DNA from: Aurantiochytrium sp. KH105
Lineage: Eukaryota; Sar; Bigyra; Thraustochytrida; Thraustochytriidae
Direction of reading: 5' to 3'
DNA: 64,000 nt
NCBI GenBank assembly: GCA_003116975.1
Contig: BGKB01000157.1
Coordinates: 110,274-174,273, forward strand
Shown: positions 26,812-50,734 of the stretch, in pieces
How positions within the stretch are numbered: position 1 is the stretch's first letter
Layout of the letters: each line of letters begins with the position of its first letter
Program-made: the position numbers and the translations under genes
Notes under the pieces: generated by a model
Database searches by the model: none
What the model was told of the DNA's origin: nothing
Seen by the model: only the letters and a program-made list of their open reading frames with translations

Positions 26812-27048
26812 ATGCACGCCCACTTCCCTCCCGAATGGCTGGAGAATGGCCCTCGAGACTGCTCACTGAGACGTGGCCTGCCTCTCGACCGCCTGCATGC
26901 AGAATCATCATACTGCGCTTGGCTGCTAGAAGACTACTGCGACCTCAATTGTGCAAAGTGTCCGCACGGGACCGACATGAGTTGTTTTGGCATGTGCGAA
27001 GATCCTCGTCCCACACGAGGCGGTCAAATGTGGGACCTTGTTTTGTAA
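26812..27048 (+). CDS. Small Cys-rich reading frame (repeat copy A)
   Basis: A 78-residue frame from an ATG, overlapping the first repeat copy. Its C-terminal half, LLEDYCDLNCAKCPHGTDMS followed by CFGMCED and a terminal WDLVL, has five regularly spaced cysteines. A CP-x-GTD-x-C core of this kind occurs in Cys-rich modules of stramenopile extracellular proteins (from memory, not searched). The same frame is preserved in copy B with two amino-acid changes (His to Arg, Met to Leu) and a different stop codon. It lacks a signal peptide and may be a terminal exon fragment. Confidence 0.3.
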   Translation: MHAHFPPEWLENGPRDCSLRRGLPLDRLHAESSYCAWLLEDYCDLNCAKCPHGTDMSCFGMCEDPRPTRGGQMWDLVL

Positions 27049-27242
27049 ATGTACCTTTTGGGCAATTTGGTGGATAAATAGGGCACCAAGACAGATTGTG
27101 AGTCGCACAGACACCCTCGCGTAAAAGTCTGATTGGCAAAACGAAGTACTCGGAACTGGGCAATTGTTTTGCATTTCGAGCAAGGATCCGGAATTAGAAA
27201 AGAAAAGAAAAGAAAAAAATGACAGGTTGTAAGGAGAAGAAA
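26921..27242 (+). repeat. Direct repeat, copy A (322 bp)
   Basis: Nearly identical to copy B at 27285-27606, with a handful of substitutions and 1-2 nt indels. Starts GGCTGCTAGAAGACTACTGC and ends in an AAGGAGAAGAA purine run. Confidence 0.95.
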
Positions 27243-27284
27243 GGGGGGTGATCAACGCAGAATCAAACGCAGAATCAGTGTGCA

Positions 27285-27606
27285 GGCTACTAGAAGACTA
27301 CTGCGACCTCAATTGTGCAAAGTGTCCGCGCGGGACCGACATGAGTTGTTTTGGCTTGTGCGAAGATCCTCGTCCCACACGAGGCGGTCAAATGTGGGAC
27401 CTTGTTTTGTGAATGTAAACCTCTTGGGCAATTTGGTGGATAAATAGGGCACCAACACAGATTGCGAGTCGCACAGACACCCTCGCGTAAAAGTCTGATT
27501 GGCATACGAAGTAGTCGGAACTGGGCACTTGTTTTGCATTGCAAGCAAGGATCCGGAATTAGAAAAGAAGAGGAAAGAAAAAATGGCTGGTTATAAGGAG
27601 AAGAAG
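27285..27606 (+). repeat. Direct repeat, copy B (322 bp)
   Basis: Second copy, 364 bp downstream of copy A, separated by 42 bp that holds a small AACGCAGAATC duplication. The Cys-rich frame of copy A remains open here (to the TGA at 27412) but has no nearby ATG. Confidence 0.95.
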
Positions 27607-27750
27607 CTGAAGCAGTTACAACAAATTATTAGAATTACATTGTAGGAACATTCTTTCTCGGTGGCTCATACGATACGACCGGGTGTGGAAGAGACCTGAA
27701 TCGAAAGCAAAACCAGCTCGTTTCCAGCAAAACCAAAACTCGGGTCGGTG

Positions 27751-27778
27751 GTGTCGCTCAATGTCAGATGAGCGACAC
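27751..27778. repeat. Perfect 10-bp hairpin beside the assembly gap
   Basis: GTGTCGCTCA and TGAGCGACAC are exact reverse complements separated by 8 nt. The hairpin lies 28 bp from the left edge of the gap that hides the 5' part of the Fanzor/TnpB-like gene. It could be an element terminus or part of an RNA structure. This is an inference. Confidence 0.6.
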
Positions 27779-27806
27779 TACGTCTCCATTGGAGTCGCCG
27801 CACAGC

Positions 27807-28587
27807 NNNNNNNNNNNNNNNNNNNNNNNNNNNNNNNNNNNNNNNNNNNNNNNNNNNNNNNNNNNNNNNNNNNNNNNNNNNNNNNNNNNNNNNNNNNNNN
27901 NNNNNNNNNNNNNNNNNNNNNNNNNNNNNNNNNNNNNNNNNNNNNNNNNNNNNNNNNNNNNNNNNNNNNNNNNNNNNNNNNNNNNNNNNNNNNNNNNNNN
28001 NNNNNNNNNNNNNNNNNNNNNNNNNNNNNNNNNNNNNNNNNNNNNNNNNNNNNNNNNNNNNNNNNNNNNNNNNNNNNNNNNNNNNNNNNNNNNNNNNNNN
28101 NNNNNNNNNNNNNNNNNNNNNNNNNNNNNNNNNNNNNNNNNNNNNNNNNNNNNNNNNNNNNNNNNNNNNNNNNNNNNNNNNNNNNNNNNNNNNNNNNNNN
28201 NNNNNNNNNNNNNNNNNNNNNNNNNNNNNNNNNNNNNNNNNNNNNNNNNNNNNNNNNNNNNNNNNNNNNNNNNNNNNNNNNNNNNNNNNNNNNNNNNNNN
28301 NNNNNNNNNNNNNNNNNNNNNNNNNNNNNNNNNNNNNNNNNNNNNNNNNNNNNNNNNNNNNNNNNNNNNNNNNNNNNNNNNNNNNNNNNNNNNNNNNNNN
28401 NNNNNNNNNNNNNNNNNNNNNNNNNNNNNNNNNNNNNNNNNNNNNNNNNNNNNNNNNNNNNNNNNNNNNNNNNNNNNNNNNNNNNNNNNNNNNNNNNNNN
28501 NNNNNNNNNNNNNNNNNNNNNNNNNNNNNNNNNNNNNNNNNNNNNNNNNNNNNNNNNNNNNNNNNNNNNNNNNNNNNNNNNNNNNNN
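27807..28587. other. Assembly gap (781 N)
   Basis: Unknown sequence. It interrupts the Fanzor/TnpB-like gene. Gap length may be an estimate, so frames cannot be carried across it. Confidence 1.
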
Positions 28588-28932
28588 ATCATTCGCTTTC
28601 TTCTGGACAACTTTCAAGAAATCCGGGTTGGTAAAATAGGTGTCAAGAGTATCCTCGAATCACCCAAGCTCCATCGAACTGCGAAGCGCAAGATACAACT
28701 GCTTTCTCACTGTCGCTTTCGCGACAAACTCATTCAAGACCACGGACATGTAAGAAACACGCTGGCCGTTCCTGAAGAGTACACTTCAAAAACATGCACA
28801 AGATGCGGATACGTGAAACGCAATCTTGGTGGAAATAAACGATATAATTGTGATCGTTGTGGTCTCTCCATTGACAGAGACATCAACGGTGCTCGCAATA
28901 TTTACATCAAATCCATCTCGTGCACGAAGTGA
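28588..28932 (+). CDS. Fanzor/TnpB-like RNA-guided nuclease, C-terminal part (5' end lost in gap)
   Basis: The frame is open from the gap edge to the TGA at 28930-28932 (114 residues). It has the C-terminal signature of the TnpB/Fanzor (OrfB) family: LLSHCRFRDKLIQ (the 'sHgrFrerL' region), then PEEYTSKTC holding the RuvC-II Glu, a four-Cys zinc ribbon (CTRCGY ... CDRCGL), and DRDINGARNI with the RuvC-III Asp. All expected catalytic and zinc residues in this part are present and there is no frameshift, so the copy is not visibly decayed. Family members are guided by an RNA that overlaps or follows the 3' end of the gene, here 28850-29050. The N-terminal lobe and RuvC-I lie in the gap or left of it. 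Lower GC than neighbours fits a mobile origin. Fanzor is chosen over bacterial TnpB contamination because of the surrounding nuclear genes. Confidence 0.88.
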   Translation: MIRFLLDNFQEIRVGKIGVKSILESPKLHRTAKRKIQLLSHCRFRDKLIQDHGHVRNTLAVPEEYTSKTCTRCGYVKRNLGGNKRYNCDRCGLSIDRDINGARNIYIKSISCTK

Positions 28933-29144
28933 CTCTTCTGGTAAACTTATGCTAGTTACGGCTTGTAAAATATTGTTTATAGAAATAAATAGTAACGGGT
29001 GATCAATTTTATTCTTTTTTCTTTGCGAACACGTAAGCGATCAGTCAATTTCTTTTAGATTAGATGCAGCATGTTCTTGTCGTAGGCCTATACGTGGGAC
29101 GAATCCCCCATAACAGAAAAAGCATTCATGGACATTTTGAATGA
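28933..29144. other. AT-rich 3' flank of the Fanzor-like gene (candidate guide RNA / element end)
   Basis: AT-rich stretch between the nuclease stop codon and the end of the Ste24 gene on the other strand. In related elements the right end and the guide-RNA scaffold lie here. I see no clear terminal inverted repeat. Confidence 0.35.
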
Positions 29145-30692
29145 TTACTTTACCTTCTTGACGTCATGCGTCATCTCCTCGACCGCACGATCCATTGCGC
29201 GCAGACGGTCGAGAAGCGATGGGTGCGAGTGGTGCACGGCGTGATAGAGCGGGTCGTGATCAAATGATGCGAGATTGGCAATGGAAATCTTGGCAAGGCC
29301 GGACTTGAGCCCGTCGGCCTTTCCGAGGTTGACGGCGAAGGTATCCGCCTCGTACTCAAACTTGCGCGTGACAGCATTGACCGCGATCGACAAGACCGTG
29401 CCAAGGGGAGCCATAATGTATGAAAAGAGATTAAGACCAATCACCACAGGCTGGTCAACAAAGCCAAAAGACTTGTACATGTCCGGGTCATGCAGAAAAA
29501 GGCCAAAGAGGCGAAAGGCAACCAAGTAGACGACGTTCTGCAGCAAAAAACCCTTGACTGTGTGGCTCATGCTCCAGTGTCCAAGTTCATGGGCGAGAAT
29601 GCTGACAACCTCTTCGGTTGTGCATGCCAAGGCAGGCTCCTCCTCGTTCTTGATGAGCGTATCGTACAGCACAATGCGCTTGTCGCGGAGGAAGCCATAC
29701 AGGTAAGCATTAGAGTGGCTCGAGCGCTTGCTGCCATCAACCTCGTAGAGCTTGGTGAGAGGAAATTCGAGACTCGCGGCCAGCTTTTCAATTTCCGACT
29801 TGAGCTCGCCGTCAGGAAGTGGCTTGTACTCGTTGAAAAGCGGCATGATAAAGTTCGGGTACACGGTAATCATGACCATCGAAAAGCCAACAAGAAGACC
29901 CCAGACATAGAGCCAGAAGCGTTCTCCACCCCAACGCACAATTTTGACAATGCCGGCCATAAGAGGAAGCACAATGACGTTCTCCACTGCCAAGCTCTTG
30001 AGCGTGTCGGCGACGAACAGAGAGGGCGTGGTCCGATTGAAACCATGCTCGGCCTCGACCCAGAACGTGCTGTAGATTGTCAGCGGCATCGAGACGACAG
30101 CCCCGACGACGCTCTGCGCCAAAAGAAACAAGCTTCCCACGACAAGTTCGCTTGAGGCCGGTTCAAGGCCAAATGCGCTCTGGGCCACGGTCTCGGATTG
30201 GGTCCACAGCCAGACGTTAAAGCCGCTCAGCAGCATCGCTGCGCTCACGGCCATACCGTAGCCCATGTTCACAAACGACAGGGTGTTCTTGTCGAGATTG
30301 TACGTCTGCGACTTGTGGAACTTGCTGCGGAGCTGCTCCAAAAGGCTCGCCTTGTTGTTGTTGTTGTTGTTGTTGTTGTTGCTGCTGCTGCTCTTCTCCT
30401 TGTCTTGATCTCCTCCATCGCGGGCCATCTCCTGAGCAGCGGGCGCGGCCGCAGGCGCTGTGGCCGCGGCATCGTCGTCGATGGCGCGGACCTGGTCCTC
30501 CAGCCTGCCGGGCAGCTTGTCTCTGCGAAGATATGCGCGCTGCCGGAGCGCGAGCGCCATCTCAAACGCCTGCTCCACCACGACGAACCCGAGCCCCAGC
30601 GCCAGGTAGTTCACGCCGGACGGCGGCGTCCACCCCTGCTGCCGGATCGCCGGCCACGCCGGCCACGCCGGCCACGCCGCGCTCGCGCTCAT
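29145..30692 (-). CDS. STE24: CAAX prenyl protease 1 (Ste24/ZMPSTE24 family, M48)
   Basis: A 515-residue ER integral membrane metalloprotease that removes the -AAX tripeptide from prenylated proteins. The zinc motif is ILAHELGHWSMSH (HExxH at about residue 369), with the third ligand Glu in FEYEADTFA (about 445). Other family blocks are EAEHGFNRTT, FIMPLFNEYKPL, VDGSKRSSHSNAYLYGF and the ending HHSHPSLLDRLRAM. The family N-terminus carries a species-specific insertion with a run of nine Asn (about 103-115), encoded by a GTT repeat on the plus strand. The frame is open to 30905, but the extension is Ser/Arg-rich. The ATG at 30692 fits the family start, with a Trp-Pro-Ala repeat just after it. 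It is divergent from TTC1 across 148 bp. Confidence 0.92.
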   Translation of the reverse strand: MSASAAWPAWPAWPAIRQQGWTPPSGVNYLALGLGFVVVEQAFEMALALRQRAYLRRDKLPGRLEDQVRAIDDDAAATAPAAAPAAQEMARDGGDQDKEKSSSSNNNNNNNNNKASLLEQLRSKFHKSQTYNLDKNTLSFVNMGYGMAVSAAMLLSGFNVWLWTQSETVAQSAFGLEPASSELVVGSLFLLAQSVVGAVVSMPLTIYSTFWVEAEHGFNRTTPSLFVADTLKSLAVENVIVLPLMAGIVKIVRWGGERFWLYVWGLLVGFSMVMITVYPNFIMPLFNEYKPLPDGELKSEIEKLAASLEFPLTKLYEVDGSKRSSHSNAYLYGFLRDKRIVLYDTLIKNEEEPALACTTEEVVSILAHELGHWSMSHTVKGFLLQNVVYLVAFRLFGLFLHDPDMYKSFGFVDQPVVIGLNLFSYIMAPLGTVLSIAVNAVTRKFEYEADTFAVNLGKADGLKSGLAKISIANLASFDHDPLYHAVHHSHPSLLDRLRAMDRAVEEMTHDVKKVK

Positions 30693-30840
30693 CGTGCCGC
30701 CTCGCGCCGCCGCCGCCGAGGATGCTCTTCTGCTCCTGCTCCGCCGCCGGCAGATCGAGAACTGCTGCTCCGTCGCGCTCTCCGCGGCGCCCTGAGACAC
30801 GCCCGCGACGCTCTCGGACCGCGAGCGGCCGGCCGCGAGC

Positions 30841-32018
30841 ATGCCCGTCGAGATCGAGCAGCTCCCGTCCTCGGACGAGGAGGACGCCAACGAGCCCGAG
30901 CCCAAGCCCGCCGTCGCCGGCGGAGCGGTCGCCGCCGAGGGCGACCATGGCGGCGACCATGGCGGCGACCATGGCGGCGACCACGGCGGCGACCATGGCG
31001 ACGCGGACCCCGACGTGACGAGGTGAGTGGGCGGGAAGGGAACGGGAGACGAGGCTCGAGGGCGGCACTGCGGCCTGTGTATCTTTCAGCGAGGAAGACT
31101 TGACTGACGAACTGATTGATCGAATACTTGCTTGTTGTATACAGAGCACATCCCGCGGGATTTGGGGACGACAAGATCCCTGCGCGGCACCTCGAAACTG
31201 TACGTTTGCATCGAGTCTCGAAGGCGCGCCGAGACTCTCAAAGAGAGAGAGAGAGAAGGAGTCTAATCATTACTCGGGCATTGAGACTGACAAGCGTGTG
31301 CGCATCGAACGATGTTTTTCATCCATCGTGCTGTACGTGAACCTGCATCATGTGGTTGTTTTCTCAATGTGAATGACGTGAACGTTTCTGTTCACGTGGC
31401 GTGGCAATGGATGGCACACATAATATGGCATGTAAACGTTGACAGTATGTGAACCATCCTGGTTCCGTGCGCCATGTGGAAAAGGACGCAAAGCACGCCA
31501 ACGAGCTCAAGGAGGAGGGAAACAGACTGTTCAAAGCCAAGGCATACCTGGAAGCCGTCGAGGTGTATTCAGAAGCACTAGAATATGCGCCCGAAGAGGA
31601 GAGTTTTCGGGCAAACAAGGCCATTTTCCTCAACAATCGCGCCGCCTGCCTCATGTACCTAGACCGAACGGAGGATGCCATCGACGATTGCTCAGACGCA
31701 ATCGAGCTGGATCCACGCTACGTCAAAGCCTACATGCGTCGGGCAAAGCTCTTTGAGACAACGGACCAACTCGACGACGCTCTCGGTGACCTAAACAAAG
31801 TTGTTGAAATCGACCCTTCCTTCCGGGCTGGCGTGCTTGAGCAGGCTCGCGTCGAGGCCGCGGTCAAGGAGAAGAACGAAAAACTCAAGGACGAGATGCT
31901 TGGCAAACTCAAGGACCTCGGCAACACCGTGCTCGGCAAGTTCGGCATGAGTCTCGATAACTTTAAGGCCGTCCAGGACCCGCAAACAGGTTCGTATTCG
32001 ATCTCCTTCCAGCAGTAA
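30841..32018 (+). CDS. TTC1: Tetratricopeptide repeat protein 1 (TTC1) homologue, three exons
   Basis: Exons 30841-31022, 31145-31199 and 31446-32018; introns start GTGAGT and GTACGT and end ATACAG and TGACAG. The junctions keep one frame (810 nt, 269 residues). Exon 1 encodes an acidic N-terminus (MPVEIEQLPSSDEEDANEPE) and five GDHG repeats. Exon 3 has the TPR array (ELKEEGNRLFKAKAYLEAVE, then FLNNRAACLMYLDRTEDAID, then VKAYMRRAKLFETTDQLDDA) and the TTC1-specific end: LKDEMLGKLKDLGNTVLGKFGMS, then a GSYSISF tail. TTC1 is a co-chaperone-type TPR adaptor. An alternative acceptor at 31089 would break the frame. Confidence 0.88.
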
Positions 32019-50657: not shown

Positions 50658-50734
50658 NNNNNNNNNNNNNNNNNNNNNNNNNNNNNNNNNNNNNNNNNNN
50701 NNNNNNNNNNNNNNNNNNNNNNNNNNNNNNNNNN
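50658..50734. other. Assembly gap (77 N)
   Basis: Unknown sequence, cutting the fragment at 50322-50657. Confidence 1.

Follow-up and report, generated by a model that had tools for sequence, protein, structure and literature searches.

The 64,000-nt stretch of the Aurantiochytrium sp. KH105 genome analysed here (hereafter the window; positions 110274-174273 of contig BGKB01000157.1, or C157, in a 76.0-Mb assembly of 367 contigs) carries an element whose sequence is very probably best explained as an IS607-type protist transposon with a Fanzor2 nuclease, the N-terminal domain (N-domain) of which is dual-coded inside the transposase gene tnpA. It is already known that Fanzor2 occurs in IS607 elements, that pro-Fanzors exist and that the two IS607 orfs can overlap. 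What is new, as predicted from the genes compared here, is an N-terminal domain of the nuclease coded at +1 inside tnpA, in a lineage marked by the RuvC-I motif DPG (the DPG lineage).

The readable end of the nuclease gene, at 28588-28932 (+), is open with one stop, and its translation of 114 residues contains EYTSKTC, a C4 zinc ribbon (C-x2-C...C-x2-C) and DRDINGARNI. The product matched Pfam PF07282 (E 3.2e-15; 56.5 bits, cut-off 26.3), and the RuvC-II Glu lies six residues before the zinc finger (EYTSKTC), as in the Fanzor2 fingerprint. The initial annotation had described this tail as a hallmark set ending at a single stop, and the description is borne out by the motifs, the Pfam match and the sister loci: seven other loci of this assembly carry the tail at 97-100% identity, which is not chance, five further loci match it at 81-91% over most residues, and it is identical at the protein level to that of the sister copy L012. 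The 781-N gap reported upstream is also real. However, because RuvC-I falls within the gap and is unreadable, the intact catalytic core that had been proposed cannot be claimed for this copy, and the two visible pieces are separated by 1,482 nt in L012 versus 781 N here, about half. Nor is the description as an undamaged copy supported, the copy being unreadable across the gap. Close to the left end, 26 nt are missing. The element part to the left of the gap (Table 1), including the tnpA start codon, had been overlooked, as had the overlap of the two genes, which is the unusual part.

Given the mismatch with L012 and the presence of internal-deletion derivatives among the sisters (L017, L019 and L024), the window copy may itself have lost internal sequence, or the length given for the gap may be incorrect. 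For the window copy alone, the chances are even that it is the remnant of an internal deletion and that its tail looks intact owing to recent insertion, which would be compatible with the dual-coding explanation; the halved gap, the 26-nt deletion and the other derivatives in the genome favour a remnant, whereas the unreliability of gap sizes (L015 has 99 N at the same place) and the protein-level identity of the tail to L012 speak against it. One of the derivatives, L024 (C168:146377-146523 region), is a family A copy without 554 nt of the tnpA part, in which the nuclease frame is open for 513 aa. After the first copy of the flanking 365-nt repeat, a G-run is followed by GTGATCAA, the same bases that lie 3' of the element after the second copy, which hints at a trace of the empty site. 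A second assembly gap in the window (77 N) lies at 50658-50734.

Table 1. Features of the window copy and its flanks (positions in the window)
Feature	Position	Strand	Remark
Host flank, tandem repeat with a period of ~365 nt; element after the second copy	26921..27583	+	
Whole family A IS607-type Fanzor2 element, window copy	27607..28998	+	1392 nt including 781 N; left- and right-end matches at C157:137880-139271, copy alignments
Element left end and 5' part	27607..27806	+	26 nt fewer than L012 close to the left end
Start of tnpA (IS607 serine recombinase), MSDERHYVSIGVAAQ, then gap	27761..27806	+	Complete in sister L012
Candidate start of the long Fanzor2 frame, +1 to tnpA, MSDTTSPLESPHS	27768..27806	+	ATG 7 nt after the tnpA ATG; putative start
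Assembly gap, 781 N, hiding the overlap domain as well as the Fanzor core (RuvC-I included)	27807..28587	.	
Last 114 codons of Fanzor2 with the stop; encode the alternative RuvC-II Glu, the C4 zinc ribbon and RuvC-III	28588..28932	+	
Non-coding right end, 3' of the nuclease; candidate for the 3' portion of the guide RNA scaffold	28933..28998	+	Kept among copies; fold not above shuffles
GG at the right boundary, likely serine-recombinase crossover dinucleotide	28997..28998	+	Ends in ..AACGG; GG target of IS607 in the available text of PMC6188088
Right-flanking host DNA, guide site if the IS607 TnpB rule applies	28999..29018	+	By analogy with the available text of PMC10711439

The assignment of the nuclease to a eukaryotic contig is well founded. 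Matches of the eight neighbouring ORFs scanned include CAAX protease, C2/EF-hand, ZW10, IFRD and Dpy-30 genes, and the copies lie on many contigs with different flanks, so that bacterial contamination is unlikely and was rejected. The CAAX prenyl protease (M48) gene is located just downstream of the element, at 29145-30905 (-).

Searches of the whole assembly gave 25 PF07282 matches, all above the cut-off, and 17 resolvase matches. The 25 PF07282 loci comprise 17 of family A, to which the window copy belongs (several of them partial), two of family B, four of family C, and L033 and L034; the last two are distant TnpB-like fragments outside families A-C, with 28-36% identity to the queries. One of the four family C loci, L035, is a remnant. 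Families B and C are, from their predicted genes, two further Fanzor2 families beside family A. The tnpA of family B looks partly decayed, with no clear start in the frame used and a TGA in the C200 copy.

The other genome copies, which had been proposed as a means of defining the element ends, were compared within family A. The right boundary ..AACGG was present in all 15 of the 17 loci in which it was located, with unrelated flanks and no target duplication. Matches to the right-end 102 nt were found at 19 places in the genome and matches to the left-end 128 nt at 14, some of them short of the last base. The left ends carry GTTAC, giving short GTTAC/GTAAC inverted ends, and GG lies eight bases upstream in five of the nine printed left ends; GG before GTTAC is absent in L011, L014, L016 (the window copy) and L026. 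According to the available text of PMC6188088, IS607 inserts at GG without target duplication. Lack of terminal inverted repeats is a further trait of the IS607 family.

The type of element can be read from L012, which is ~2.12 kb long and contains a 205-aa TnpA frame and, at +1 to it, the frame of a nuclease that has DPG, the alternative RuvC-II Glu and the zinc ribbon. Its TnpA (P0003) matched NF033518 (E 3.7e-51; 173.3 bits, cut-off 110), PF00239 (serine recombinase; E 1.1e-17) and PF00376 (MerR HTH; E 1.5e-7). The RuvC-I DPG is in the gap of the window copy and appears in sister proteins as LDPGARD (P0002) and MDPGVRC (P0004); DPG and an alternative RuvC-II Glu are described as Fanzor fingerprints in the accessible part of PMC10711439. 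The predicted product is thus a Fanzor2 carried by an IS607-type transposon. Fanzor1 was rejected on the grounds that the element encodes an IS607 TnpA, and the call between the two rests on element type because our tree contains no Fanzor1 rows. The TnpB/Fanzor part of the initial annotation is upheld and refined to Fanzor2 in an IS607-type element, as opposed to Fanzor1. The candidate new guide-RNA system that had been proposed is not supported: Rfam gave no match up to E 0.5 in four element loci, and the RNA fold of the right end was no better than shuffles (z 0.28).

In L012 the nuclease frame is open through the whole of tnpA and runs 621 codons from the +1 ATG to the Fanzor stop, with an overlap of 611 nt between this ATG and the tnpA stop; for the ATG of the conserved core, by comparison, the overlap with the tnpA stop is 11 nt. 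The same overlap, in a shorter form, is present in families B and C. When synonymous codons of single genes were shuffled, the +1 frame of family A stayed free of stops in 0.3% of shuffles (~0.003), and an equally long open stretch arose in 3-16% (0.03-0.16) for families B and C. Such odds from one genome are insufficient, and relatives were therefore needed.

The relatives' DNA came from 80 of 305 viral_contigs relatives, 80 of 166 genome_contigs relatives, ten plasmid records and tnpA-driven genome searches (at most 30 loci each). Requiring an intact tnpA together with a nuclease frame of 300 aa or more reduced 208 tnpA records to 141, of which 86 remained at 80% TnpA identity; these were divided into DPG, canonical and other classes by regular expressions. 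We found tnpB at +1 and open for 344-860 nt into tnpA in all 48 non-redundant DPG-lineage elements, as against a nuclease frame open deep into tnpA in one of 22 canonical IS607 elements (the exception being L285) and one of 16 in the other class (L040, which has DCG for DPG and an alternative Glu). The DPG loci from viral_contigs and genome_contigs had been found by nuclease-core patterns, the long protein serving as the query for their ranking. The tnpA-driven loci, which avoid that bias as loci, although some of their genomes and phyla were chosen from nuclease-search loci, gave deep overlap in 12/12 DPG, 1/22 canonical and 0/14 other elements. A smaller locus set, since superseded, had given 44/44, 0/8 and 1/7, respectively.

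Nine non-DPG plasmid records, hand-picked as controls among the 60 listed of 225 records, have an annotated gene overlap of at most 50 nt, or a gap. In the only DPG plasmid record (L198, from a Trichormus variabilis plasmid), PGAP starts the nuclease at the core and the interrupted tnpA is unannotated; since this nuclease is annotated from its core, gene models of the DPG lineage are possibly truncated. Protein searches provided the external relatives P0008 and P0130-P0138. The motif P-[FY]-W...S-W-F is shared, and P0130, P0131 and P0138 align over 94-98% of the family C protein length, reaching into the part coded inside tnpA; a scan of viral_contigs with the family A protein gave no match. 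The overlap arrangement of the protist Fanzor2 is thus also seen, at the level of predicted frames, in bacteria and viral contigs.

To measure selection on the product of the +1 frame, the TnpA proteins were held fixed and synonymous codons shuffled, only pairs less than 50% identical being compared. The +1 products of DPG tnpA had a BLOSUM score of 0.585 versus a null of -0.044 (sd 0.013; z 49.1; 794 pairs), and +1 stops numbered 93 against 264.9 expected, whereas 36 non-DPG control genes (544 pairs) gave z 2.2 and 426 stops against 435.3. For the 12 genes of the tnpA-driven subset, z was 18.7, with 19 +1 stops against 63.0. All 48 of 48 DPG elements have the P[FY]W Trp, always over an xTG codon, while 11.0 would be expected from each gene's own usage, and the Trp of SWF is present in 46/48. 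In addition, change at fourfold sites among DPG elements (942 pairs) was 0.546 in the overlapped tnpA versus 0.715 in the tnpB core, compared with 0.727 and 0.692 in the controls (103 pairs). Conservation of the +1 product starts 3' of the HTH-coding part of TnpA. The +2 frame of DPG tnpA was also above the null (z 19.4, and 9.7 in the tnpA-driven subset), though more weakly than +1, probably because codon choice is shared. Together, these statistics indicate that the predicted +1 product is under selection across the DPG lineage, and that its N-terminal nuclease domain is dual-coded with the transposase.

Family A, which is without the SWF motif, behaves somewhat differently. Its tnpA third positions, which are second positions of the Fanzor frame, are as variable as third positions of the core (0.0985 versus 0.0878), and recent constraint on the overlap residues is accordingly not seen in this family. 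Yet in the 10 of 17 loci compared there were nine distinct stop columns in tnpA versus one in the +1 frame, and the one-step opportunities for stops were 105 in +1 versus 86 in tnpA (p 0.0045, with columns treated as independent). The sequences of family A thus show retention of the frame, but without residue constraint.

The N-domain is also found where tnpA is broken or gone. A profile of 41 sequences, many of them from intact-tnpA loci that it then matched, detected the domain in 74/75 DPG loci with intact tnpA; among 32 loci with broken or no tnpA, none of which had contributed to the profile, it matched 29, although two of the matches are partial and five rows with the same score look like one element. 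Where tnpA was found, both frames were open in 73 loci, tnpA alone was interrupted in 22, the long nuclease alone in four and both in eight. For example, in the viral-contig locus L041 the tnpA frame is full of stops and the nuclease begins MIRNKKRKR...SPYWTDKIEQISKQLFIP...NSWFTV. Eight of the nine external proteins P0130-P0138 have the N-domain. In P0133 and P0137 the PFW/SWF domain is kept and the linkers are shortened, and the sequences suggest that tnpA has been lost under it.

AlphaFold2 modelling of the external relative P0131 (51 sequences) gave block means of 69 and 89 for residues 91-110 and of 83 for residues 131-140, with residues 1-92 below 50. For the family C protein (13 sequences), residues 1-138 were below 50, giving no confidence. 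VIA-align listed 9b0l_P from model residue 93, a range that reflects the first aligned residue only; the N-terminus of 9b0l may or may not be this domain, and the profile gave no sequence match to it. Comparison of the N-domain profile with PDB sequences, Pfam and PHROGs revealed no convincing match.

From these data, TnpA, a MerR-HTH serine recombinase, would excise and insert the element, probably at GG and without target duplication, as its family and ends indicate. By the known mechanism of TnpB, Fanzor2 may use RNA from the right end, with the right flank as guide, and may cut the resealed donor site, which would favour retention of the element. The nuclease gene does not start 3' of tnpA; its frame extends at +1 back through the TnpA catalytic domain and encodes there, as part of the nuclease, the N-domain with its P-[FY]-W...S-W-F motifs. 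These motifs most likely pack on the nuclease core and aid its assembly or the binding of RNA or target, and in family A putative basic, NLS-like stretches stand beside them. Translation of the long protein probably begins by internal or leaky initiation: the +1 ATG follows that of tnpA by 7 nt in all three family A leaders that were examined, and by 163 nt in family C.

Across the lineage the long frame has no conserved start codon, which leaves room for a frameshift. Ribosomes would then start on tnpA and shift by programme, producing a fusion of the TnpA HTH to the nuclease, and the onset of +1 conservation after the HTH-coding part would fit such a product. However, the 22 loci in which tnpA is interrupted under an open long nuclease frame, and the closely placed ATG of the family A leaders, speak against it, and we consider a frameshift improbable, if the strongest of the competing readings. 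Still less probable is that the conserved codons of tnpA reflect a DNA or RNA element, such as a promoter, part of the guide RNA or TnpA binding sites. The overlap region could carry one, but stop depletion is strongest in the +1 frame, amino-acid conservation (the W and SWF) extends over ~100 codons and L041 retains the protein motif, all of which make a nucleic-acid element highly implausible.

The frame might also be open by accident, as a result of TnpA residues and codon bias, with the nuclease starting, in line with the usual annotation, at the conserved ATG beside the tnpA stop. The shuffle frequencies within the three families leave some room for this; the 11-nt overlap of the family A core ATG resembles the short overlaps of ordinary IS607 pairs, PGAP starts the Trichormus nuclease at the core, and the overlap residues of family A look unconstrained. 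Against these points stand the lineage-wide z of 49 and the suppression of fourfold change, both absent in control IS607 elements, the domain kept after loss of tnpA in L041, and the excess of stop columns in tnpA over the +1 frame within family A. An accidental open frame is thus quite unlikely, and for the overlap itself, chance was rejected by comparison with control IS607 elements in overlap counts, shuffles and fourfold sites.

The dual-coding explanation also agrees with the phylogeny. In a tree of 80 nuclease cores (without Fanzor1 rows), the DPG lineage stood apart from canonical TnpBs (100/98). Family A grouped with P0008 (100/100), and families B and C grouped with P0130-P0138 (100/100), adjoining largely cyanobacterial rows; P0137 is from a eukaryotic protein source. 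As the genome thus holds two separate lineages, both with the overlap, an origin of the overlap before either entered eukaryotes would fit. The comparison of sequences shows that dual coding is ancient in the DPG lineage, which comprises pro-Fanzors and Fanzor2. Probably, all extant IS607-borne pro-Fanzors and Fanzor2 descend from an ancestor in which the nuclease N-domain was overprinted on the TnpA catalytic domain, the two being locked in one DNA stretch from cyanobacteria to protists; neither mobility nor RNA-guided retention would then be separable until tnpA was discarded, and core-only clones would be without a conserved domain. Mutual constraint on codons, exerted by each gene on the other, may explain why tnpA and the nuclease stay together. 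Fanzors, the RNA-guided nucleases of eukaryotes, are under development as editing tools, and how they arose from IS607 pro-Fanzors is actively debated. If the explanation is true, some gene models of the DPG lineage are truncated, and the N-domain is a lineage marker older than the eukaryotic members.

In the open-access literature searched, as far as its text was available, there was no mention of a deep overlap of tnpA and nuclease or of an N-domain coded inside tnpA, which is not proof of absence; the accessible part of PMC9956272 describes IS607 genes as overlapping or separate and gives no length. Other IS607 elements, such as the H. pylori and Stanieria plasmid records, likewise encode a MerR-HTH serine recombinase and TnpB, but with an annotated overlap of at most 50 nt or a gap, and with a nuclease frame rarely open deep into tnpA. 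Fanzor1 (e.g. SpuFz1) is likewise eukaryotic, with DPG and the alternative Glu, but is carried by other eukaryotic transposons and not by IS607, according to the available text of PMC10711439. The pro-Fanzors defined there, in the part consulted, as IS607 TnpBs with DPG and alternative Glu belong to the same lineage and have the deep +1 overlap and the N-domain; they differ in being bacterial and in their zinc finger, at whose Cys positions a 51-row consensus (TSKTxSWxGEI) mostly lacks a Cys majority; the window copy keeps all four. Closest in type is Fanzor2 itself, for example that of Acanthamoeba polyphaga mimivirus (PDB 9b0l), a eukaryotic or viral TnpB homologue in IS607 elements, from which the element described here differs by its long nuclease frame overlapping tnpA at +1.
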